DNA of 35,648 nucleotides from Candidatus Methanomethylicaceae archaeon (GTDB taxonomy: Archaea > Thermoproteota > Methanomethylicia > Methanomethylicales > Methanomethylicaceae): the NCBI GenBank assembly GCA_025057955.1, contig JANXER010000012.1:1-35648 (forward strand). Reading direction: 5' to 3'. The notes under the pieces are model-generated. The model saw nothing but the letters and a program-made list of their open reading frames with translations. It made no database searches and was not told where the DNA came from. Positions 18,982 to 35,648 of the stretch are shown here, in pieces (position 1 is the first letter of the stretch; every line of letters starts with the position of its first letter). A program made the translations under genes and the position numbers.

Positions 18982-20013
18982 CTATTGTCTAATTATTTTA
19001 TGAATTGCCTCTGCCATGATTTCATACGTTCTATCCAGCTTACCAAATATTTTTGCTCCAGCATTATAGACATCAAACTCCATTAAATCCATACCTACAA
19101 TTTTTGATTTGGATTTTTTTATATAAGATATAAGAGAATATAACTCATTATGTGATATACCTAAGTAATCTAAAAAGCGAGCTCCTCTAATAGAGGTATT
19201 TGCACAAACATCTACATCAATAGAAATATAGGTATATGGAAGTGAATTATTTAAAATAATCTTACATGATTCTTCCCAACGCTTTTCTAAATCCTCCTTT
19301 CTTATAATATGAACTTTTGATTCCTCAATACTTCTATAAAATTCTACAAATCTTTTCACTCTCTCATCATCAATTTCTTCAGCTGTTCTTGAGGGATAAT
19401 CATTCACACCTATTATGAAGATGTTTTCTGGTGGTAGCTCCTTTGCAATATAATTCAAAAAGGAATCAGCATTATAGCTATCTGATCTATTGTATATGTA
19501 AGGATCAAAGGGTGAAAATTTTGTATATGGATTGTTTTCTAAATCATATTGTATTAGACCACATCTTATCGTTGGTAATATGAAATCAGTATGACTATCA
19601 AATACTATCAATCTAACATTTTCATAACCATATTCCTTACATATTGCTCTTATCACCCCACCCGAAAGTGAATGATCTACACCTATTAGAATTGGAACAT
19701 CTGGAATTATATTGGAGTATACATTATTCATGAGTTGATCAGCATATTCCTTACAACCATTAGAGTCTATGAAGGTTACTATATTTTCCACTGTAACCAT
19801 AAAGATTATTTCTAATGGTGGTGTAGGAGTGAGCCATGGTTCAATCTCATTTTTAATTAATTCAAAAGGATTTTCAAATTGATTTAAAATTCCAACAGCA
19901 GGATCTCTAAATGGCACATTTCGATAATTCTCTTTACAAGCCTCTATTTTTCTATTTATATAGGCAATTCTTTCATCCGGATCTAATAAACCATTAAGAA
20001 ATTTAAAATTCAT
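18982..20013 (-). CDS. ureohydrolase (arginase/agmatinase/formiminoglutamase superfamily)
   Basis: This 343-residue protein carries all six manganese ligands of the ureohydrolase fold: His114 in LIGVDHSLSGG, Asp139, His141 and Asp143 in VFDSHTDF, and Asp266 and Asp268 in YISIDVDVC. The usual GGDHS, DAHxD and SFDxDxxDP motifs are altered (GVDHS, DSHTD, IDVDVCANTS), so it is a divergent branch. An N-terminal extension of about 100 residues contains its own WLTPTPPLEIIFMVTVEN segment. The enzyme class hydrolyses guanidino compounds to urea or similar; the substrate is unknown. It follows the GlcF/HdrD-like gene by 16 bases, across a T7 tract. Confidence 0.8.
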   Translation of the reverse strand: MNFKFLNGLLDPDERIAYINRKIEACKENYRNVPFRDPAVGILNQFENPFELIKNEIEPWLTPTPPLEIIFMVTVENIVTFIDSNGCKEYADQLMNNVYSNIIPDVPILIGVDHSLSGGVIRAICKEYGYENVRLIVFDSHTDFILPTIRCGLIQYDLENNPYTKFSPFDPYIYNRSDSYNADSFLNYIAKELPPENIFIIGVNDYPSRTAEEIDDERVKRFVEFYRSIEESKVHIIRKEDLEKRWEESCKIILNNSLPYTYISIDVDVCANTSIRGARFLDYLGISHNELYSLISYIKKSKSKIVGMDLMEFDVYNAGAKIFGKLDRTYEIMAEAIHKIIRQ

Positions 20014-20029: not shown

Positions 20030-21271
20030 TTATTTTCTTTTTACTATTGGCTCAAGTATTTCGACTATATCGAGCATTTGCATCTTTGATTTCAATGCAT
20101 CGATGGCATCATTAAGATTTCTCCAACAGAATGGACACACACATGTAATTATAGAGGCGCCAGTGGTTTCAGCCTCTTTCACACGCTTCATTGAGGTCTC
20201 AACAGAATAGTCTGGAAAGCCACCTCTTACACCACCGCCTGCACCACAGCAGAATGAGAATTTTCTATTTCTATACATCTCAACAAGCTTCAGACCAGGA
20301 ATAGCCTTCAATACATTACGTGGAGATTCATAAACTTCAGCATGTCTTCCTAAGTGGCATGGATCATGATATGTAACTATATTATTGAAGGTTCCTTCAA
20401 ATTCAATTTCTCCCTTATTTATCATATCTTCCACTAGTTGAATTGTATGAATTACCTTAACGCCTTCCATTTTTCCAAATTTATCAGCATATCCTTCTGG
20501 TGGATCCTTTACATAATCTATTGATAGTGTTCTATAGCAACCAGCACATGTGGTTATGAAACCACTTGCACCATATTTCTCCGGTAATTCTCTATTGTGT
20601 TCTATGAACTCCTTTGCAATATTGTACTGTCCAGTTCTCAATAGTGGAGATGCACAACACCATTCATCTGGAGTTACTGTGAAGTCGATCTTCAATTTCT
20701 GAAGTAGCTTGAATGTAGCTAAAGCTATATTCTTTTGTCTATAAGATGCTGTACATCCTGCAAAGTATATGTACTCCGCCTTCTTTGGAAGAGAGTCTCT
20801 AACACTAGCAGGCAACCAATTGAGTCTATCCTCATGCTTCTCCATGTATGGATTCTTATTAACGCCTATTGTAGAGCTCCACTTTTTAACACCTTCAGGT
20901 ATACCCATATTAAACTTCCAAGCCTCTCCCTTGAGAGCTTCGAATATCCTCAGAAGATAGTCCTTTATATCAGTCTCACACATCTCCACGCATGCACCAC
21001 AACCTATGCATGTGTAAATTACATGGGTGGTTTTTTCGGACCATTGTATCATGCCACTCAATAAACCTTTGGCCAAAGCCGCTTTACCCTTTGATCCTCT
21101 ATATGCCTCAAATTGATACTTATCTCCTTGTGGGCATATCATTGCAGCAAAATTTTCAGTTGAACCATACTCATAGCCATATTTGCAGTTTCCACATTGC
21201 GTGCACATAGATATTCGATCATAGAGTTGAGCTAACTCTTTTAGATCTGTATTCTTCAAAACAAGAGCCAT
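20030..21271 (-). CDS. HdrD/GlcF-like iron-sulfur protein with two CCG domains
   Basis: This 413-residue protein binds two [4Fe-4S] clusters near the N terminus (Cys23/26/29/46 and Cys88/91/94/98). It then has two complete CCG cysteine-rich motifs: Cys173, Cys205-206, Cys242, Cys245, and Cys305, Cys341-342, Cys377, Cys382. Two full CCG motifs are the mark of HdrD, the subunit that splits the CoM-S-S-CoB heterodisulfide, and also of GlcF-type partners of flavin oxidases. It has no membrane helix. The flavoprotein gene ends 12 bases upstream. With an MCR operon nearby, a heterodisulfide reductase role is attractive; glycolate or lactate oxidation is the alternative. Confidence 0.85.
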   Translation of the reverse strand: MALVLKNTDLKELAQLYDRISMCTQCGNCKYGYEYGSTENFAAMICPQGDKYQFEAYRGSKGKAALAKGLLSGMIQWSEKTTHVIYTCIGCGACVEMCETDIKDYLLRIFEALKGEAWKFNMGIPEGVKKWSSTIGVNKNPYMEKHEDRLNWLPASVRDSLPKKAEYIYFAGCTASYRQKNIALATFKLLQKLKIDFTVTPDEWCCASPLLRTGQYNIAKEFIEHNRELPEKYGASGFITTCAGCYRTLSIDYVKDPPEGYADKFGKMEGVKVIHTIQLVEDMINKGEIEFEGTFNNIVTYHDPCHLGRHAEVYESPRNVLKAIPGLKLVEMYRNRKFSFCCGAGGGVRGGFPDYSVETSMKRVKEAETTGASIITCVCPFCWRNLNDAIDALKSKMQMLDIVEILEPIVKRK

Positions 21272-21282
21272 TATAATCCCTC

Positions 21283-22743
21283 CTATCTAATACCAAGCTT
21301 ACCTGGATTCATAATATTATTCGGATCAAGCATATCCTTTATTTTAGTCATTAGGTATACATAGCCAGCATCTGCTGCTGCATTCAACTCATTCATATAT
21401 TCCACAGGCGGTTTATAAGGAAGCATTCCTAATGGAATACCTGCTCTTATGCATTCTACCATAGCATCCCTTGCAGCTTTAACAGATTCAGGGTTTCTTT
21501 TATCAAATGGAGTCATTAATCTAAGCATTCCATAATGAGCCCCTTGGAAATCTGTAAATCTAACAGCTGGTGATAGATTATGTCTTATGTATATTTCCTT
21601 CCATTTTTCATAAAGTATGGGCCAGCTCTTACATGGTGCGAATGTTCCTGGCCAAGCAAGACCACCACCGCATGATTTTGAATAGTTCTTAGTTGAACCT
21701 ATGATTCTACTTGGTAGTTCAGTTCTACCCCTCTTTGCCTCTGGTGGATATTCAAAATCTATAAGCTTTGTTCCCCTTGCTTTTTCCTCCGCAACTACTT
21801 TCTTCCACATCTTTCTCTTGTATTCTAGCTCCTCCTCACTCCATCCACTTATTACAGTATAACTAAACCACTCAGGAGTATCCTTTGGCTTCTCTTGATA
21901 TGGATATGGTATTGGTATTTGAGCTAACCACCAGCTTACTGCAGTAACTTCATCACAAAGGGAATAGTGGCGCCAGTGAACCATATATCTTGTCATATCA
22001 TATGCTGTTTCAGCAGCAATTGTCAATACATCTTTATATGGTCTAATTGGAAATATCCAAATTCCAAGCTTTGTAACTATACCAGTAGTGCCCATCCATC
22101 CTAGGAATAATCCATCCATCCTTGGTAATGGAAGGAATGAATGCCAAGAGTCTGAGAATGCACAAGATCCTAGCTTTACAACCTCAGCTGTAGGTAATAC
22201 AACTTCCATACTTGATATTAATTGGCTATTTATACCTAATCTACCATTCAAATGTCCAATACCATGATTTATTGCCATAGCTAATACTGATGCTGATGCT
22301 GGATGTACCCCCCAGCCAAATTCAAAACCCTTTGAAAATTCATAACCTTCCCATTGTGGATTTGTTGCTTTTAGAGCAGCAGATAATTGAGCATGGCTTA
22401 CTCCTGGTTCTATTATAGCATAACATGTCTCTGGATCAATTTTTATAATTTTGTCCATTCTCTTCAAATCCATTACTATGCCGCCCTCTTCAGGAACACA
22501 TAGACCTCCAATGTTTGTAGCATTCACATAAGGTATAACGGGTATTCTCATGTGATTAGCAAGGCGAAGTACACGTTGAATTTCTGTGACGGTTTTTGGC
22601 ATTACGACATAATCTGGCAATCTTGGATCTGCCCATGTTAAATCCCAAGAATATGGTAGAAGTACTGCCTCTTCATTGCTCACATAGTCTGGACCAACTA
22701 TCTGTTCAAGCTTTGCAAGAACTTCTCTATTTCCTCTTGCCAT
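21283..22743 (-). CDS. GlcD-like FAD-dependent oxidoreductase
   Basis: This flavoprotein of about 486 residues has the FAD_binding_4 (PCMH) domain at the N terminus (PDYVVMPKTVTEIQRVLRLA, PYVNATNIGGLCVPEEGGIV, GRLGINSQLISSMEVVLP) and a C-terminal FAD-oxidase domain ending DMLDPNNIMNPGKLGIR. The ATG at 22743 lies behind GGAGG; the in-frame TTG at 22758 is inside that ribosome site. Relatives oxidise 2-hydroxyacids and hand electrons to a CCG iron-sulfur partner, here the next gene. In archaea with MCR, GlcD-HdrD pairs have been proposed to feed heterodisulfide reduction. The electron donor is unknown. Confidence 0.87.
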   Translation of the reverse strand: MARGNREVLAKLEQIVGPDYVSNEEAVLLPYSWDLTWADPRLPDYVVMPKTVTEIQRVLRLANHMRIPVIPYVNATNIGGLCVPEEGGIVMDLKRMDKIIKIDPETCYAIIEPGVSHAQLSAALKATNPQWEGYEFSKGFEFGWGVHPASASVLAMAINHGIGHLNGRLGINSQLISSMEVVLPTAEVVKLGSCAFSDSWHSFLPLPRMDGLFLGWMGTTGIVTKLGIWIFPIRPYKDVLTIAAETAYDMTRYMVHWRHYSLCDEVTAVSWWLAQIPIPYPYQEKPKDTPEWFSYTVISGWSEEELEYKRKMWKKVVAEEKARGTKLIDFEYPPEAKRGRTELPSRIIGSTKNYSKSCGGGLAWPGTFAPCKSWPILYEKWKEIYIRHNLSPAVRFTDFQGAHYGMLRLMTPFDKRNPESVKAARDAMVECIRAGIPLGMLPYKPPVEYMNELNAAADAGYVYLMTKIKDMLDPNNIMNPGKLGIR

Positions 22744-22810
22744 TTTTTTAACCTCCAATTCTTTTTCTTATTAATTCAAGACTTAAAGATATATAAATTT
22801 CGGAATAGAA

Positions 22811-25387: not shown

Positions 25388-26071
25388 ATGATTAGATATC
25401 ATCTACAAAGGGTAATGAAAAGTCATGAAATGGGATTATTGGGAGATGATATCCTTAAAGAGCTTATTGAAAAATTACCAATGATCGATGAGTTAATATG
25501 TGAGATTGAAAAAACATTTGATTTAAACTACCCCCCTATAATTATAGATCCAAACTTAATAATAGTAAGATATCCAACCAGCTTTGCTACAACAGTTATT
25601 TATGCGTCCACACAAATACAAAAATTGAATGATAAACTCACTCTATGTGTTGAAATGACCCTTCCATTTTTGCTATTTGCAAATAAAGATTTAATAAAGG
25701 CTTGTTTAGCACATGAATTTTTACATTATATATTTGCTACTATAATCATCCATAGAAGAGAGTTTGATAAACTCCTTGGTCAAAAACCCATATCATTGGA
25801 AGTATTGATGGGTTTCGATGATACATATTTAGTTAAGCCAGAGAATTGGATGAAAGATTCAGAGATTATAAGTCTTATAAAAAGATTCTTCAATCCAATA
25901 ATAAAAGATAGTGATTTGGAGGAAAAAATACAAGAGAATTGGATTAAAAAGTCACTTCCAATAAAAGAAGTAAGACCAGAGGATCTTCAAATAAGAATCC
26001 CAATTCTTGAGATTGATAAAATTTCACTTGATAGAAAAATCTTAGAGTACAAGGATAAATATTCTTATTAA
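25388..26071 (+). CDS. unrecognised HEXXH-containing protein
   Basis: I do not recognise this 227-residue protein. It has a zinc-protease-like HEFLH at residues 109-113 within a hydrophobic helix (IKACLAHEFLHYIFATIII), after a strand-rich region (PPIIIDPNLIIVRYPTSFAT). The second half is charged, with possible third ligands such as the Asp or Glu in VLMGFDDTYLVKPENW. No signal peptide is seen. It starts 10 bases after the M42 peptidase stop, so the two are likely co-transcribed, and both could serve peptide turnover. A minimal gluzincin-type protease is a guess. Confidence 0.65.
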   Translation: MIRYHLQRVMKSHEMGLLGDDILKELIEKLPMIDELICEIEKTFDLNYPPIIIDPNLIIVRYPTSFATTVIYASTQIQKLNDKLTLCVEMTLPFLLFANKDLIKACLAHEFLHYIFATIIIHRREFDKLLGQKPISLEVLMGFDDTYLVKPENWMKDSEIISLIKRFFNPIIKDSDLEEKIQENWIKKSLPIKEVRPEDLQIRIPILEIDKISLDRKILEYKDKYSY

Positions 26072-28116: not shown

Positions 28117-29106
28117 CTAGGAGACTACTGCCTTTACCATTGCCATTATATTTTTGGTGGGAGTACGAGGGGCAATTCCACAGCTCGGTGCCACTATGTC
28201 TACTCCTAATGAAATGGCTTGTTTTGTAGCATTGAAGACTTCTTCTTCAGTTCCATTTAATAACACACCAGCGGAGGGAATATTACCAATTAGTGCAACC
28301 TTCCTTTCTCTAGCTATAGATTTAGCCACGGAGAGATCCACCTTCTCTTCAATGCTTAAACCAGAAAATCCACAATCAATCATATGATGAATAATTGGGG
28401 TAGCATTTCCACATATATGAAGTATTGCTCTTCTTGATAATTCTGCTATGGACTTAAGTGGTCCTTTTGAGAACTTCTCAAACATTTTAGGACTTATTAC
28501 GGATGGAGAGGCTGTTGGATCTGCGGGAGCTATAATATCTGCGCCCTCTCTTATAAGCTCCTTAGCGTATATGGTGCAGGCCTCTCCTGCCTTATCAAGA
28601 TAAGCCTTGACCTCCTCTGGCTTCTTTATCATCATAAGACATAGGCGTTCCACACCTAATAGATGACCAGCTAAAGTTGTAGGTCCTTCAAATCCAACTA
28701 TTAGGGGGACTTCTAATTTCATTTTCTTTATTATGTTGATGGCCTCTAGAATAGTTCGAACTCTATAGCTATCCAAAAGTCCATTCGTAGTTGGACTCTT
28801 TCCTTGATCATATAGTGTTTTTGCTACTGATGGTTGACGATCTTCTCTACCCTTCTCTATTACACATCCCATTGCCTCCGCTAATACGGTTAAACAGAAG
28901 GGAATCCTTACACCTTCTAATCCTGCAATACTATGAGCTGCCAAGGCAAGTTTAGCCATGAGCTCTCCATTAAAATGAGCCTCAGGCCAATGTGCTCCCG
29001 AGGCAGCCATCAATTCAACTGTGCCAGTTTGAGTGACTGAAAGAACAGAGGGGCGATCAACTTTCTCTCCAGCCAATATCTTAAAAGTTCTCTCCTTAGG
29101 AGTCAT
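28117..29106 (-). CDS. mtaA: MtaA/MtbA-type methylcobamide:CoM methyltransferase (UroD family)
   Basis: This 329-residue protein of the uroporphyrinogen-decarboxylase fold belongs to the methyltransferase branch: TPKERTFKILAGEKVDRPSV, SVTQTGTVELMAASGAHWPE, and zinc ligands His230 and Cys232 in LHICGNATPI with Cys309 in APSCGIAPRTP. The zinc activates the thiol of coenzyme M to take a methyl group from a corrinoid protein. That the H-x-C...C set is intact argues for CoM methylation rather than heme synthesis. It is the last gene of the mcr region and has its own promoter. A corrinoid protein gene lies at the other end of the cluster. MtaA versus MtbA specificity is not resolved. Confidence 0.87.
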   Translation of the reverse strand: MTPKERTFKILAGEKVDRPSVLSVTQTGTVELMAASGAHWPEAHFNGELMAKLALAAHSIAGLEGVRIPFCLTVLAEAMGCVIEKGREDRQPSVAKTLYDQGKSPTTNGLLDSYRVRTILEAINIIKKMKLEVPLIVGFEGPTTLAGHLLGVERLCLMMIKKPEEVKAYLDKAGEACTIYAKELIREGADIIAPADPTASPSVISPKMFEKFSKGPLKSIAELSRRAILHICGNATPIIHHMIDCGFSGLSIEEKVDLSVAKSIARERKVALIGNIPSAGVLLNGTEEEVFNATKQAISLGVDIVAPSCGIAPRTPTKNIMAMVKAVVS

Positions 29107-29111
29107 AATTA

Positions 29112-29134
29112 TAATTAAAGGTAAAAAATATAAA
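29112..29134 (-). promoter_or_regulatory. cstA terminator and MtaA-like gene promoter
   Basis: The minus strand reads AAACTTTTTTATATTTTTT here. It serves as a T-rich stop for cstA and contains a TATA element about 25 bases ahead of the ATG at 29106, giving a leaderless transcript. Confidence 0.45.
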
Positions 29135-29139
29135 AAAGT

Positions 29140-30813
29140 TTAGAATTCCTCGAATTTAAGAAAGGTTTCTCTCTCCTCTGGTGTATAACCTTTTCTCCAT
29201 CTCTTTCTTGCCCACTCAAATACATATATCAATGTTATAACTGCAGCCATTAATGATACGAATCCAGGAATAATGGCACCTGCGCTAAAGTTCCACCATG
29301 CTCCATAGATTGCTGCTGGAAGAGCTATGCCAAATAATGTAATTACCATGGCAATTCTCCAGTATATTGGATTCTTACCATGTAATTTTGCCCATTCTCC
29401 AACAATTATAAATGAAAATACAGCTAGTGAAGTTGAAAGTATTGGGAAGAGGGCCCAAATTTGTAGATAGGCACCGCTTAGAGCAAGCCCGATTACAATG
29501 AATGCTGTTATTGTAGCAGCAATCCATCTTGATGCATTAACATATCTTGTTATTTTCTTCTTAGTAACTAGCTGAACGAACTCTAATCCCAATACTCTCA
29601 TGTTTCTAAAGCCAGAATAGAAGGTACTCATAATGAATACTATTACAATCCACATACCTAGGATCATCAGCGCCTCAGTACCCAATGGCAATATGGTTCC
29701 TACAACTTTTGCAAACCCAAGACCATAAGCTGCAGTCCAACCAGCCTTTAATGCTGGAAGATATGTAGCAACAGGAAGTACTAACATTGCTAAGAAGGCA
29801 GTCCAGAGGCCTACGCTCTCTAGAACTTCTCCTCCATATCCAATTATTCTAACCCATCTTTCCTCTGGAAAGCGTTTACAAGTATAAGCTCCAATCCAAA
29901 AAACATGCATTCCAGTAAGAGCGCCACATGAAACCATCATAGTAATTCCAGGGTAGAACCAACCACTAGGGGTAAGCGCTCTATCATAGAATATTAGGGG
30001 GGGATATTCTGTTATGGGCACATTAGCTACTAAAGCACCAATGAACATTAAAACAACACCCGTTGCCATATAGAGGAACATCATAAAGTTAGCTGGCTCT
30101 GAATATAGCCAATTGGGCAGACATGCAGCCAATATACCAATTACTGCGAGAATTAAATACCATGCTTCTGCAGGCAATCTAACAGGATACATCATTCCAA
30201 TATATAATGCTATCAAGAATATCACATACTGCATAATACCAACAAGCCATACTGGCCATCCCTTTCTATATAATAAGTAACCAGATGGAGGACCTATCAC
30301 TGCTAGGAGTATGATTGGTATGAATAAGCTTGGTCTTGCGGTTGTTCCAGCGATAACTAATCTAACGAATGCAGCACAAAAGCTTACTATAGCTAGATAA
30401 CCAATGAATGTAAATAGAATGCCTGAAAGCGGTGTTATCCACCTATAAGATACTTCACTTGCTGTTTGACCACGTTGTCTCATCATAACAAAGCCGGTTG
30501 CATAATCATGAACTGAACCAAGGAAGATATTAACTGGTAATACATATAATATTCCAGAGGCCCATCCCCATTGCGCTATTGCCACACCTCCAGCCAAAGG
30601 AGCGCCTCCTGCAGTTGCAGCCCAGTGATCGCCGAAGAGCGAATATGGATTCGCTGGATAAAAGTCGAAATCATCTCTGAAGACACATGCAGGAGTCTTT
30701 CTATTGGGATCTGGCGTGAAATAGGTCCTCTCTAATCTTTTTGAAACAACGAATATACCAAATAGATAGAAAGCTAAAGCAATTATTACTAAAAGTCCAG
30801 TAGTCATTTGCAT
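29140..30813 (-). CDS. cstA: carbon starvation protein CstA-type transporter
   Basis: This integral membrane protein of about 557 residues has some 16 hydrophobic helices. The CstA signature is present: SLFGDHWAATAGGAPLAGGV, AQWGWASGILYVLPVNIFLG, SVHDYATGFVMMRQRGQTAS and ITMMVSCGALTGMHVFWIG. Bacterial CstA/BtsT carriers import peptides or pyruvate. I chose ATG 30813 behind GGTGA; the upstream TTG at 30834 would add seven residues. It follows mcrG by about 120 bases with its own TATA, so it may be separately expressed. Its place inside an MCR cluster is unusual and may point to the carbon substrate used. Confidence 0.9.
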   Translation of the reverse strand: MQMTTGLLVIIALAFYLFGIFVVSKRLERTYFTPDPNRKTPACVFRDDFDFYPANPYSLFGDHWAATAGGAPLAGGVAIAQWGWASGILYVLPVNIFLGSVHDYATGFVMMRQRGQTASEVSYRWITPLSGILFTFIGYLAIVSFCAAFVRLVIAGTTARPSLFIPIILLAVIGPPSGYLLYRKGWPVWLVGIMQYVIFLIALYIGMMYPVRLPAEAWYLILAVIGILAACLPNWLYSEPANFMMFLYMATGVVLMFIGALVANVPITEYPPLIFYDRALTPSGWFYPGITMMVSCGALTGMHVFWIGAYTCKRFPEERWVRIIGYGGEVLESVGLWTAFLAMLVLPVATYLPALKAGWTAAYGLGFAKVVGTILPLGTEALMILGMWIVIVFIMSTFYSGFRNMRVLGLEFVQLVTKKKITRYVNASRWIAATITAFIVIGLALSGAYLQIWALFPILSTSLAVFSFIIVGEWAKLHGKNPIYWRIAMVITLFGIALPAAIYGAWWNFSAGAIIPGFVSLMAAVITLIYVFEWARKRWRKGYTPEERETFLKFEEF

Positions 30814-30847
30814 ACAATTCACCACAGCTTCCAATAATATTAAATTT

Positions 30848-31694: not shown

Positions 31695-33023
31695 TCAATC
31701 ACCTCCTTCTAATGCTGCTTCCACAATGCTCTCTATTGGATTATTAAACTCTTTTACATTCTTAAATATCTGCGAGAAAATACCTGCAGTTTTCTCTGGT
31801 GGATATGTTAAAGTACCTGCATCTAAAGCTGTTGCTGCAGCTACACATGGCATAATAAACAACTTTGAGCTCTTTAAATTTGGATGATTAGCATTCATAA
31901 TCCCAACCTCTCCACCACCATATAATGCATGTGTAAGAAAATCAAGCAACAGTCCTGTTCCAAGAGCTCTTCCAAATTCAACATCTGGAAGCCCTGTTTC
32001 ATTAAAGAGCATTTCATTATAATTTACAATAACGCTTGAAACTCCATGTGCACTTCTTGCAGCGCCACAATTTACCATAGTAGCTGCTAGCATACCAGCT
32101 GCAGCATATGCATTCCAAAGCTCAATATCAATTGGCTCATAAATTACAAAGCCCGATGGTAATTTTTCCTTAGGCCTTATTACACCATCATTTAATGCTC
32201 TAGTTAATATCTCACATAATACCTTACCTGTAGTACCATTCTTTCCCATAGTCTTAACAGTACTATAAACTAAATTGCCTGCATTTAAACATTCATAAGC
32301 AAATCCTAACAAATAAAGCCTCTTGTATCTCCCTATCAAATTACCAGAGTTAACTAAGTATCCCATTTCAAAACAACCAGCAAGAGTTGCTGCTTTCATT
32401 GCATTTCTATTAGCAATAGCTACAATTACATTAGATTGAATTGCTCTCCAACCATATCCAAGATGTTCAAGTCTAAGTGGTGATGTTAAGGCAGAAGTTA
32501 TTGCCCCTCCTTTAAACTCTATAGTACTAGGATATCTACCAAATACTGCAGTTGAAACTGCTTGTGCTTTTATTGGCTCAATTTTAAATTCTTCAACTAT
32601 TGCTTGAACTACTGCGGATCCAGCTATTAATGAGGCAGCGGTATAATCTGCACTTACTTCCATCATATTCATTGGAATTTGAACTAAGAGTTGTCTTCCT
32701 TTATTTAGGACTTCCACCCTTCCATCATCATTAGAAGTACTAATTAATCTTTCAACACGTTCACGTATTTTTTCAGCATTATCAACAATTGCTATATTTG
32801 GAATAGAATAATGAGGCATTTTGCAAAATTCTCCACCAAGCTCACCAGTCCTAAGAGATTTTTCAATTTTCTCTAAGTTAATTATAGCCGTACGCTTTAT
32901 TTCATATAATATCTTTCTAATTGCTCTATTATGTATTGGATTCAATTTTTCTAAATGAACTTTTTCTGCTATTAATTTTCCATTATCATTATATATTTCA
33001 ATGAAGTCAGGAATTTTTTGCAA
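31695..33023 (-). CDS. mcrB: methyl-coenzyme M reductase beta subunit (divergent)
   Basis: This 442-residue protein shows the McrB pattern: IEIYNDNGKLIAEKV, the KRTAIINLEKIEKSLRTGE stretch, VSADYTAASLIAGSAVVQAI, LWNAYAAAGMLAATMVNCGA and MPCVAAATALDAG. Active-site residues read by comparison with Methanothermobacter McrB: Tyr367 is kept (Tyr368 in THALYGGG), His379 is kept (His380 in NANH), and Phe361 is kept. Phe362 is Leu and Ser365 is Ala. It starts with TTG 33023 behind GGGTGA, 11 bases after the mcrA stop. Confidence 0.93.
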   Translation of the reverse strand: MQKIPDFIEIYNDNGKLIAEKVHLEKLNPIHNRAIRKILYEIKRTAIINLEKIEKSLRTGELGGEFCKMPHYSIPNIAIVDNAEKIRERVERLISTSNDDGRVEVLNKGRQLLVQIPMNMMEVSADYTAASLIAGSAVVQAIVEEFKIEPIKAQAVSTAVFGRYPSTIEFKGGAITSALTSPLRLEHLGYGWRAIQSNVIVAIANRNAMKAATLAGCFEMGYLVNSGNLIGRYKRLYLLGFAYECLNAGNLVYSTVKTMGKNGTTGKVLCEILTRALNDGVIRPKEKLPSGFVIYEPIDIELWNAYAAAGMLAATMVNCGAARSAHGVSSVIVNYNEMLFNETGLPDVEFGRALGTGLLLDFLTHALYGGGEVGIMNANHPNLKSSKLFIMPCVAAATALDAGTLTYPPEKTAGIFSQIFKNVKEFNNPIESIVEAALEGGD

Positions 33024-33034
33024 ATTCTCACCCT

Positions 33035-34687
33035 TTAGTGAGGAGGTATTATAGGATCTCTTTCTCCCTCTGGCATAAACTCTCTAAGAGCGCCCTTTAC
33101 GAGCATTTTTCGAATGTTTCCAAAATCAAATGGAAGTGCATTATCTGCGAAGGCAACTTTTATCAGAGGATTGCATGCATATGCATCACCACGAGCAATA
33201 TAAGCTCCTGCAATTGCACATGGAAATGTTGTAAGATTTGCAACTACATTATAGTCAGGATAGCTTGCATTTCTCATTTCTATTATTTGTGATTGATCTG
33301 TAAGCAATGTCCATTCGTTTGCATGTCCTTGATGATGGAATTGATCTTGTGCAAAGAAGCCAAGTCTTCCAACTCTTTCTTTATTTATCATTTGAGTGAG
33401 GTGGGCTGCTTGAGTACCGATTATTGGATCCCCTGAGGCAAGTCCACCAGCTATTGCTGCAGCATATGCTATAACTCTTGAACGCAATGATCCTCCAAAT
33501 AACATCTCACAGACAAGAGGTGAAGAATCATATATATCTTGACAGTACTTTGAAGTGGCATAAGCTATTTCTTCAACAGTTTGTAAGTTTGCAGGAGCTT
33601 TGCCAAAACCACCATACTTTTCTTGAATAAATCTTGCCATATGTTCTACTATTGTGTCAAAAACTTCATTGCTAATTAGAAAAACTACTCTCATGGGGGC
33701 TCCAAGCCCTCCAGAGAGCATTTGTTGAAGCCAACCAGCATCTAATATTATTGATGCAATTTCTGCTACATCTAGTAAATATCTTATAGGATCCTCTGGA
33801 TAAACTCTATCCGACTGTACAATATCACAGATATATCCAAAGGGTATTCCGCCCGGAGAATTTTCTCCTCTACCATAACGAACTGCTATTGTATCGCCAA
33901 CTCCAATTATTGCTTGATGTCTTAAAGTATACACTAATGCATTTATGGCAGTTTCACCTGAAATTCCATATACATTAGCAAAAGCAGATAGACAAGTGGT
34001 AGCAACCCAACGCTTTGTCATAGCAGAGCCATAGTTTCTAACGGCAATAGTAGGAATTCTTGCAACAGCAAATATTCTATTACCAATATCTCGCTTTATT
34101 ATTTCTGCTTTATCTTTTTTGAATAGTTTATTTATGTCCAAAACAATTCTACCATCAAGGGAAGATACAAGCTCATCATTCCCAGAGAATAATTTAACAT
34201 ATGAGTCTTTAACAAGTAATGGATGTATTTCAAACATATGTTCTTGAATAGCAGCAGCCCCTCCAATAGTATGATTCCAAACCTCTATTAAGCGATTTAA
34301 ACTATCAGGCGTAATCACTTTACCTAATCTTTTTTGCAATATTTCATGAGCTGGGGTTAAATCAACGATTGCAGTTCTAGCAATATCATCAAACATTTGC
34401 ATTATTGCAGCATTATTGCAAATATGTAAGTCCTCACCTTCTACAACAACTCCTTCTTTACTTATCATATAAGGAGCAATCTTTCTTTGGCCCAATGGAA
34501 TACCAAGATCAGGATTATAACGAGGAAGATTAAGTTGTTTTTCCAATATTCTTGCATAATTATAAAACTCTTGCTTTCTTTTTGATTGTCTCCACGCTCC
34601 AAATTTATAGAATTGTGTTCGTTTTTCTTTTGAAGATTCTTGAAATACCTTTTCTAAGGCTTTAATGAATTTTTCCTCTTCAGCCAT
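33035..34687 (-). CDS. mcrA: methyl/alkyl-coenzyme M reductase alpha subunit, highly divergent active site
   Basis: This 550-residue protein is collinear with McrA end to end, e.g. YNPDLGIPLGQR, NNAAIMQMFDD, IQEHMFEIHPLLVKDSYVKL, RGENSPGGIPFGY, FADNALPFDF and KGALREFMPEGER. The nickel-ligand Gln is kept (Gln148), as are His257 and Arg270. Numbered from ATG, the chamber is changed: Ala330 for Phe330, Met332 for Gln332, Arg333 for Tyr333, Phe445 for Tyr444, Ala446 for thioglycine 445, His451 for Asp450, Gln453 for Cys452, Tyr271 for methyl-Arg271, Leu401 for methyl-Gln400. The ATG at 34687 behind GGTGA beats TTG 34699. It is intact with no frameshift. It is an F430 enzyme of altered chemistry or substrate. 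Confidence 0.95.
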   Translation of the reverse strand: MAEEEKFIKALEKVFQESSKEKRTQFYKFGAWRQSKRKQEFYNYARILEKQLNLPRYNPDLGIPLGQRKIAPYMISKEGVVVEGEDLHICNNAAIMQMFDDIARTAIVDLTPAHEILQKRLGKVITPDSLNRLIEVWNHTIGGAAAIQEHMFEIHPLLVKDSYVKLFSGNDELVSSLDGRIVLDINKLFKKDKAEIIKRDIGNRIFAVARIPTIAVRNYGSAMTKRWVATTCLSAFANVYGISGETAINALVYTLRHQAIIGVGDTIAVRYGRGENSPGGIPFGYICDIVQSDRVYPEDPIRYLLDVAEIASIILDAGWLQQMLSGGLGAPMRVVFLISNEVFDTIVEHMARFIQEKYGGFGKAPANLQTVEEIAYATSKYCQDIYDSSPLVCEMLFGGSLRSRVIAYAAAIAGGLASGDPIIGTQAAHLTQMINKERVGRLGFFAQDQFHHQGHANEWTLLTDQSQIIEMRNASYPDYNVVANLTTFPCAIAGAYIARGDAYACNPLIKVAFADNALPFDFGNIRKMLVKGALREFMPEGERDPIIPPH

Positions 34688-34955
34688 ATCTTTCACCAAA
34701 ATATTTTATATCTTTTTTAATTAGATAGGAAATCTTTCTTAATAATATTTCAGTTCTTTCATCATTTTTTTCAAATTCAAAATCACACCTAGGACATCTA
34801 AGCTTATTACAATTGAAGACTGAATTCCTACAGCCAATACATGCAATGCCTCTTGATTGAAGTAAAGAGAAACGATAATGACATTGTGGACATTCATAAA
34901 TGTTACTTGTTGCTAAGGATACTTCTTCATTTAGTTCTCTTTCCCAATATTCCAA
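34680..34955 (-). CDS. small zinc-ribbon protein coupled to mcrA
   Basis: This 91-residue protein has a four-cysteine zinc ribbon (Cys22, Cys25, Cys39, Cys42) and a second cysteine group (Cys49, Cys54, Cys57 in FNCNKLRCPRCDFEF), followed by a basic helical tail (ILLRKISYLIKKDIKYF). It starts at TTG 34955, directly after an in-frame stop, with GAGGGA six bases upstream. Its stop lies in the first codons of mcrA (ATGGCTGA), so the two are translationally coupled. I do not recognise the family. It is the first gene of the mcr transcript and may be an assembly, cofactor-insertion or regulatory factor for this enzyme. Confidence 0.72.
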   Translation of the reverse strand: MEYWERELNEEVSLATSNIYECPQCHYRFSLLQSRGIACIGCRNSVFNCNKLRCPRCDFEFEKNDERTEILLRKISYLIKKDIKYFGERYG

Positions 34956-35076: not shown

Positions 35077-35080
35077 ATAA

Positions 35081-35648
35081 TGGTCAATGAATTTGATGAA
35101 ATTTTAAAGGCAGTTATGAATGGAGACACTTTCACCATAATTAATTTAATTAATGATGGGTTGAAAAAAGGAGAAAATCCGAAGAAAATATTTGAGGCTC
35201 TAGCTACTGGGATGATAAGATTAGGGGAAAAATTATCAAAAAAGGAAATTTTCCTACCAGAACTTGTAATTGCCTTTGAGGCCTTTAAAAGGGGAATGGA
35301 GATTCTAGAGCCAATTTTAAAAAGTGAAGGAGAGAGGACAAAAAAATTGAAGGTAGTTTTGGGCACTGTTCAAGGAGATATACATAATATCGGAAAGGAA
35401 ATTGTAAAAGTAATGCTTGAGGCTGCAAACTGTGAAGTATATGATTTAGGAGTTGATGTTCCACCAGAAAAATTTGTTGAAAAGGTAATTGAAACAAATG
35501 CCGATATATTGGGATGCTCTTGTTTAATATCTATTGGAATACCATATCTAAAGAAAACTGTGGAAAAAGTAAAATCAATAAGAGGAGGTAAAACAAAGAT
35601 ATTAATTGGTGGCTTTGTCACAAGTCCAGAGTTGGCAAATGAGTTGGG
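35081..35648 (+). CDS. methyltransferase-associated corrinoid protein (MtbC/MttC type), 3' end beyond the window
   Basis: The first 189 codons of an open frame run off the right edge. Residues 1-85 are the helical cap domain (EILKAVMNGDTFTIINLIND, IFEALATGMIRLGEKLSKKE, IFLPELVIAFEAF). Residues from 90 form the B12-binding Rossmann domain with the DxHxxG motif: Asp100, His102, Gly105 in GTVQGDIHNIGKEIV, then DLGVDVPPEKFVEKV, GCSCLISIG and ILIGGF. About 20-25 residues are missing at the C terminus. The His is the lower cobalt ligand. Such proteins carry a methyl group from a substrate-specific methyltransferase to an MtaA/MtbA enzyme, and one is encoded at 28117-29106. The matching substrate methyltransferase may lie just downstream. 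Confidence 0.9.

Follow-up and report, generated by a model that had tools for sequence, protein, structure and literature searches.

The window, a stretch of 35,648 nucleotides that forms contig C3 (35% GC) of genome G000 (1.21 Mb, 94% complete, class Methanomethylicia), encodes a complete but strongly divergent MCR, mcrA'B'G'. The residues that surround coenzyme M (CoM) are replaced, whereas the charged coenzyme anchors are intact. We tentatively favour, with the balance of evidence close to even, the reading that the host has in it a second, working F430 enzyme, one for the reductive cleavage of a CoM thioether whose group is not methyl and which a corrinoid/URO-D module provides. For this MCR' we infer F430 binding, the reaction, its direction and the nature of the group cleaved (R). 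MCR, whose chamber hardly varies, is the source of nearly all biological methane.

The zinc-ribbon gene, mcrA', mcrB' and mcrG' all run leftward at the right end of the window, where they overlap or lie 11 bp apart, with mcrG' and mcrB' sharing 8 bp. The genes and the codons discussed below are:

34699..33035, minus strand: mcrA' (divergent McrA), 554 aa from a TTG start; the other start, taken in the original prediction, is ATG 34687
31695..33023, minus strand: mcrB', 442 aa
30932..31702, minus strand: mcrG', 256 aa
34680..34955, minus strand: zinc-ribbon protein, 91 aa, overlapping the start of mcrA'
35080..35648, plus strand: corrinoid (B12-binding) protein with a DIHNIG motif, its 3' end lost at the contig end
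33689..33700, minus strand: mcrA' codons A334, P335, M336 and R337 (F330A, T331P, Q332M and Y333R)
33350..33355, minus strand: mcrA' codons F449 and A450 (Y444F and G445A, the latter the thioglycine position)
33485..33487, minus strand: mcrA' codon L405 (Q400L, methylglutamine position)
33875..33877, minus strand: mcrA' codon Y275 (R271Y, methylarginine position)
33242..33250, minus strand: mcrA' codons N484, V485 and V486 (one-residue deletion at N481, the site that holds the CoB thiol)
34244..34246, minus strand: mcrA' codon Q152 (Q147, nickel ligand, kept)

Profile searches find the MCR alpha, beta and gamma domains all present, with mcrA' matching both MCR_alpha_N (4.6e-87) and MCR_alpha (1.5e-18). 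In NCBIfam, mcrA' falls below the canonical alpha equivalog threshold (534.6 bits against the TIGR03256 cut-off of 767.75), as does mcrB' for its own model (449.6 bits against 516.25 for TIGR03257), and mcrG' passes the gamma cut-off (308.5 against 172.1 bits). An AlphaFold2 model built from a 15-row alignment has a mean pLDDT of 46, too low for fold searching or pocket modelling.

HMMER aligns mcrA' with Methanothermobacter marburgensis McrA essentially without gaps, and with none across the GGLGAPMR and GFFAQDQ segments, so the tyrosines cannot be recovered by a change of register. The five substitutions named in the original prediction (F330A, Q332M, Y333R, Y444F and G445A) are correct in this alignment. 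Beyond that list are R271Y, T331P, Q400L, Y446Q, C452Q and the deletion of N481; M324L is a further change, and the VGHQ that follows N481 is altered. The canonical cage of Tyr333, Tyr444 and Phe330 is missing together with Asn481. Four residues that are modified in MCR are lost, namely thioglycine-445 (G445A), methylarginine-271 (R271Y), methylglutamine-400 (Q400L) and methylcysteine-452 (C452Q), and the CoM contacts F330, Y333, Y444 and G445 are all substituted (contact list from PMC12842094; roles of MCR pocket residues from PMC12842094, PMC12413448 and PMC7058361). The Q332M change is unremarkable by itself, because ANME-2d MCRs carry Met at this position.

By contrast, the charged anchors are intact. 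The alpha subunit keeps Q147, R225, H257, R270, F443 and V482, and mcrG' keeps L117 and the CoM sulfonate residue R120. In mcrB', F361, H364, Y367 and H379 are retained and F362L and S365A are changed; we take H364 to be a coenzyme anchor in MCR. Q147, R225, K/R256, H257 and R270 are present in all four genomes that carry mcrA', and beta H364 and H379 and gamma R120 in all three full operons. The original prediction had assigned Q147, H257 and R270 to the nickel; all three are kept, but only Q147 is a nickel ligand, H257 and R270 belonging to the CoB phosphate site. Its description of the chamber as almost completely rewritten likewise fits the CoM shell and the modified-residue positions but not the anchors. 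At sites invariant among 28 canonical McrA proteins, mcrA' differs at 16 of 34 in the pocket and at 68 of 197 elsewhere (Fisher p=0.11), and at four of five CoM contacts (p=0.06). The divergence is protein-wide, with pocket changes somewhat commoner than changes elsewhere but not significantly so.

The four carriers of mcrA', which comprise G000 (the window), G009, G018 (JASFYK, L031) and G021 (JACIVP, Methanosuratincola MAG-2, L032), belong to a single Methanomethylicia family. Their mcrA' copies are 78–92% identical, that of the window being 78–80% identical to the other three, and the named substitutions are fixed in all four genomes with only position 332 varying (M, I or V). None of the four copies contains an internal stop. 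In the G018–G021 pair, the sole one with unsaturated dS, dN is 0.050 and dS 1.68 (dN/dS ~0.03), and mcrA' is under strong purifying selection. The residues shared with three other genomes, the lack of internal stops and the low dN relative to dS rule out chance or decay.

Contig C47 of G000 encodes a canonical McrA that is 43–44% identical to mcrA', with a YcaO gene near the canonical mcr operon; methane formation is therefore already covered in this host. In a tree of the four mcrA' proteins, 24 canonical Methanomethylicia McrA and four McrA from the PDB, the mcrA' proteins form a 100/100 clade separated from the canonical proteins by a branch of ~2.9 substitutions per site, a length that rules out recent duplication. 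The corresponding branch of the less diverged mcrG' is ~1.0. The branching order within mcrA', window | (G009 (G018, G021)), does not conflict with that of the canonical proteins, making vertical inheritance with repeated loss plausible. In the sister genome G001 the conserved neighbours run to CstA and are then followed by an unrelated gene, from which we conclude that the mcrA'B'G' operon is a present/absent cassette. Misbinning is ruled out because the flanks are 68–94% identical and syntenic with G001, and the GC3 of mcrA'B'G' (0.17–0.23) is low like that of the rest of the contig.

Genes for CstA-like and MtaA proteins lie downstream of mcrA'B'G' (28117-30834, the MtaA scoring just under its cut-off at 397.6 against 400 bits). 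Relatives that have no MCR' conserve this pair along with DUF169, AhcY and other genes, and the two occur together without MCR' in G001, G006, G007 and G011, which identifies them as ordinary neighbours. The same holds for PaaK and an SSS transporter, as PaaK is found in almost all relatives, and this pair therefore gives no support for a carboxylate substrate. Further into the window are a GlcD-like FAD-linked oxidase with an Fe–S protein resembling TfrB/HdrB (20030-22758; 90–94% identical in G001) and an arginase/agmatinase-like protein far below cut-offs (18982-20013; 43.9 against 174.3 bits) that is possibly a divergent ureohydrolase. A 227-aa protein matching no Pfam or NCBIfam family (25388-26071) contains an HEFLH motif, is perhaps a metallopeptidase, and keeps its place beside AhcY in relatives.

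The upstream genes form a recurrent module. Its genes run in G009, G018 and G021 as corrinoid protein, URO-D2 and zinc ribbon, then mcrA' and mcrB', followed by mcrG' where the contig reaches that far. The window differs in that its corrinoid gene is divergent from mcrA' and is ended by the contig end; the encoded protein is 49–55% identical to those of the other MCR' operons. URO-D2 is a 364-aa protein that retains the HIC...C zinc ligands and has MtaA (4ay7; 3.8e-11) as its best solved relative; identity to the G021 copy is 91% for G018 and 73% for G009. We found no URO-D2 partner in the 94% complete G000, where the best match is 27% identical; the break of the contig within the corrinoid gene may be the reason. 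The zinc ribbon is conserved in the four mcrA' operons and in G007. The latter, at L093:3-845 (G007:C12) and L094:11945-12025 (G007:C50), has the corrinoid and zinc-ribbon genes in the divergent arrangement of the window and a terminal fragment of URO-D2 at the end of another contig, which suggests that URO-D2 follows the corrinoid gene. Unrelated genes, and no mcrA'B'G', come after its zinc ribbon, so that G007 appears to have lost mcrA'B'G' and kept the transfer module. In G003:C68, G004:C2 and G005:C3, too, genes of the URO-D family have other zinc ribbons nearby, suggesting that URO-D methyltransferase systems generally have such a partner.

A reductase of non-methyl R-S-CoM would be the simplest account of the kept anchors, the remade thioether shell, the normal MCR in the host and the attached module. 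Such an enzyme would hold F430, the sulfonate of CoM and the phosphate of CoB as usual, and its cavity at the nickel and thioether would be reshaped for a group other than methyl. F330A would widen the pocket, and Arg333 could stand in for the tyrosine hydroxyls as a hydrogen-bond donor and may touch R. The corrinoid protein and the URO-D-type (MtaA-like) transferase would move R from a donor to coenzyme M, and MCR' would cleave R-S-CoM with HS-CoB to RH and CoM-S-S-CoB, the latter entering the host's ordinary heterodisulfide pool. There is precedent in Methanosarcina, where corrinoid methyltransferases can transfer ethyl groups to CoM and, with MCR, ethane forms in low yield (PMC12450230), and alkane formation by ACR is backed by back-flux work (PMC11543930). 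Three features of our data count against this reading: in the window the corrinoid gene and mcrA' are transcribed in opposite directions, no URO-D partner was found in G000, and the pocket shows no significant excess of changes over the rest of the protein. So does the fact that corrinoid/URO-D modules usually transfer methyl groups. A variant in which Arg333 pairs with a charged substrate group, such as that of a carboxylate-bearing CoM thioether in place of a plain alkyl-CoM, strikes us as improbable. We know of no MCR-family enzyme with a non-hydrocarbon substrate or product, and such an enzyme would be the first.

The resemblance of the module to methyl-transfer systems, and the second MCR copies of many methanogens, also fit an isoenzyme that still reduces methyl-CoM and is tied to one methyl donor. 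We consider this unlikely, as residues invariant in 28 canonical McrA proteins, both tyrosines included, have given way to others that are fixed across the clade, whereas characterised isoenzymes retain the active-site architecture. With N481, the two tyrosines and the thioglycine position gone, MCR' could instead have ceased to reduce a thioether and serve in, for example, F430 holding, disulfide chemistry or regulation, but we regard this as very unlikely for three subunits kept together under constraint with intact charged coenzyme anchors.

Unlikely, too, is an enzyme of the ethyl-CoM reductase (ECR) type run oxidatively, turning ethane or a short alkane into alkyl-CoM that is partly oxidised, for example to acetate. 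Its attraction is that, in the available text of the published reports, the second McrA proteins of LCB019-004 and FUM_bin.40 cluster with Ethanoperedens/Argoarchaeum and acetate production is suggested for FUM_bin.40; G009 is very probably LCB019-004. However, hardly a gap is needed to align mcrA' with the enzyme of methanogens (550 aa), whereas ECR has 595 aa with surface insertions that form its ethane channel and scores 368 bits, near the bottom among solved MCRs. A corrinoid/CoM-transferase module would also be unexpected for alkane uptake. MCH (a Wood–Ljungdahl marker) and CdhC (an ACS marker) were not found in the four carrier genomes, and although absence from genomes that are 77–94% complete is not proof, this favours reduction over complete alkane oxidation.

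The reductive reading aside, there is good support for the original prediction that the enzyme works and that its chemistry is altered: the operon is intact and coupled, selection is purifying, the substitutions are fixed, the cofactor anchors are retained, the host has its own canonical MCR, and an alkyl-transfer module is linked. mcrA' is a natural test of which residues the chemistry needs, since it keeps the anchors but has lost both tyrosines, the ligand of the CoB thiol and the thioglycine position. Linkage to the module suggests that cells make something other than methane with it, which bears on whether ethane and other light alkanes are biogenic. G021 is a carrier from Methanosuratincola, and because an isolate of this genus is in culture (PMC12244365), a test is feasible.

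The lineage itself is already known from published trees, given that G009 is very probably LCB019-004: G009 has three McrA matches against three mcrA genes in LCB019-004, although GC content is 49–52% in the G009 stretches examined and 53.7% in LCB019-004. In the available text of Lynes et al. 2023 (PMC10033731), the second McrA of LCB019-004 groups with Ethanoperedens, Argoarchaeum and a Methanosuratus MAG, and ethanogenesis or ethane oxidation is suggested with the pathway unspecified; FUM_bin.40 is a second case of such an McrA (PMC10766756). The expectation of a deep branch outside known MCR/ACR groups is not supported by these reports, in which two MAGs carry second McrA proteins that group with ethyl-CoM reductases; one of the MAGs very probably hosts a homologue of mcrA'. 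These proteins are very probably of the mcrA' lineage, and the available text of the two papers gives their placement without describing residues or operons. A search limited to the available main texts returned no description of the chamber substitutions or the gene module.

Compared with characterised systems, the module has the composition of MtaA/MtbA-type CoM methyltransferase systems, and URO-D2 shares their HIC...C ligands while being only 21–27% identical to MtaA-type proteins. Ethyl-CoM reductase of Ca. Ethanoperedens thermophilum (7B1S) is likewise an MCR-family enzyme with an altered chamber, but its channel-forming insertions are missing from mcrA', and its nickel ligand is Met where mcrA' has Gln. 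Canonical MCR (M. marburgensis 3POT; G000:C47) shares with mcrA'B'G' the alpha–beta–gamma composition, Gln147, the CoB phosphate anchors, Arg gamma120 and a near gap-free alignment, with alpha subunits 38–44% identical. It differs at F330, Q332, Y333, Y444, G445, R271, Q400, C452 and N481, and in gene order, which in the host is B-G-A for the canonical operon and A-B-G for mcrA'B'G'.
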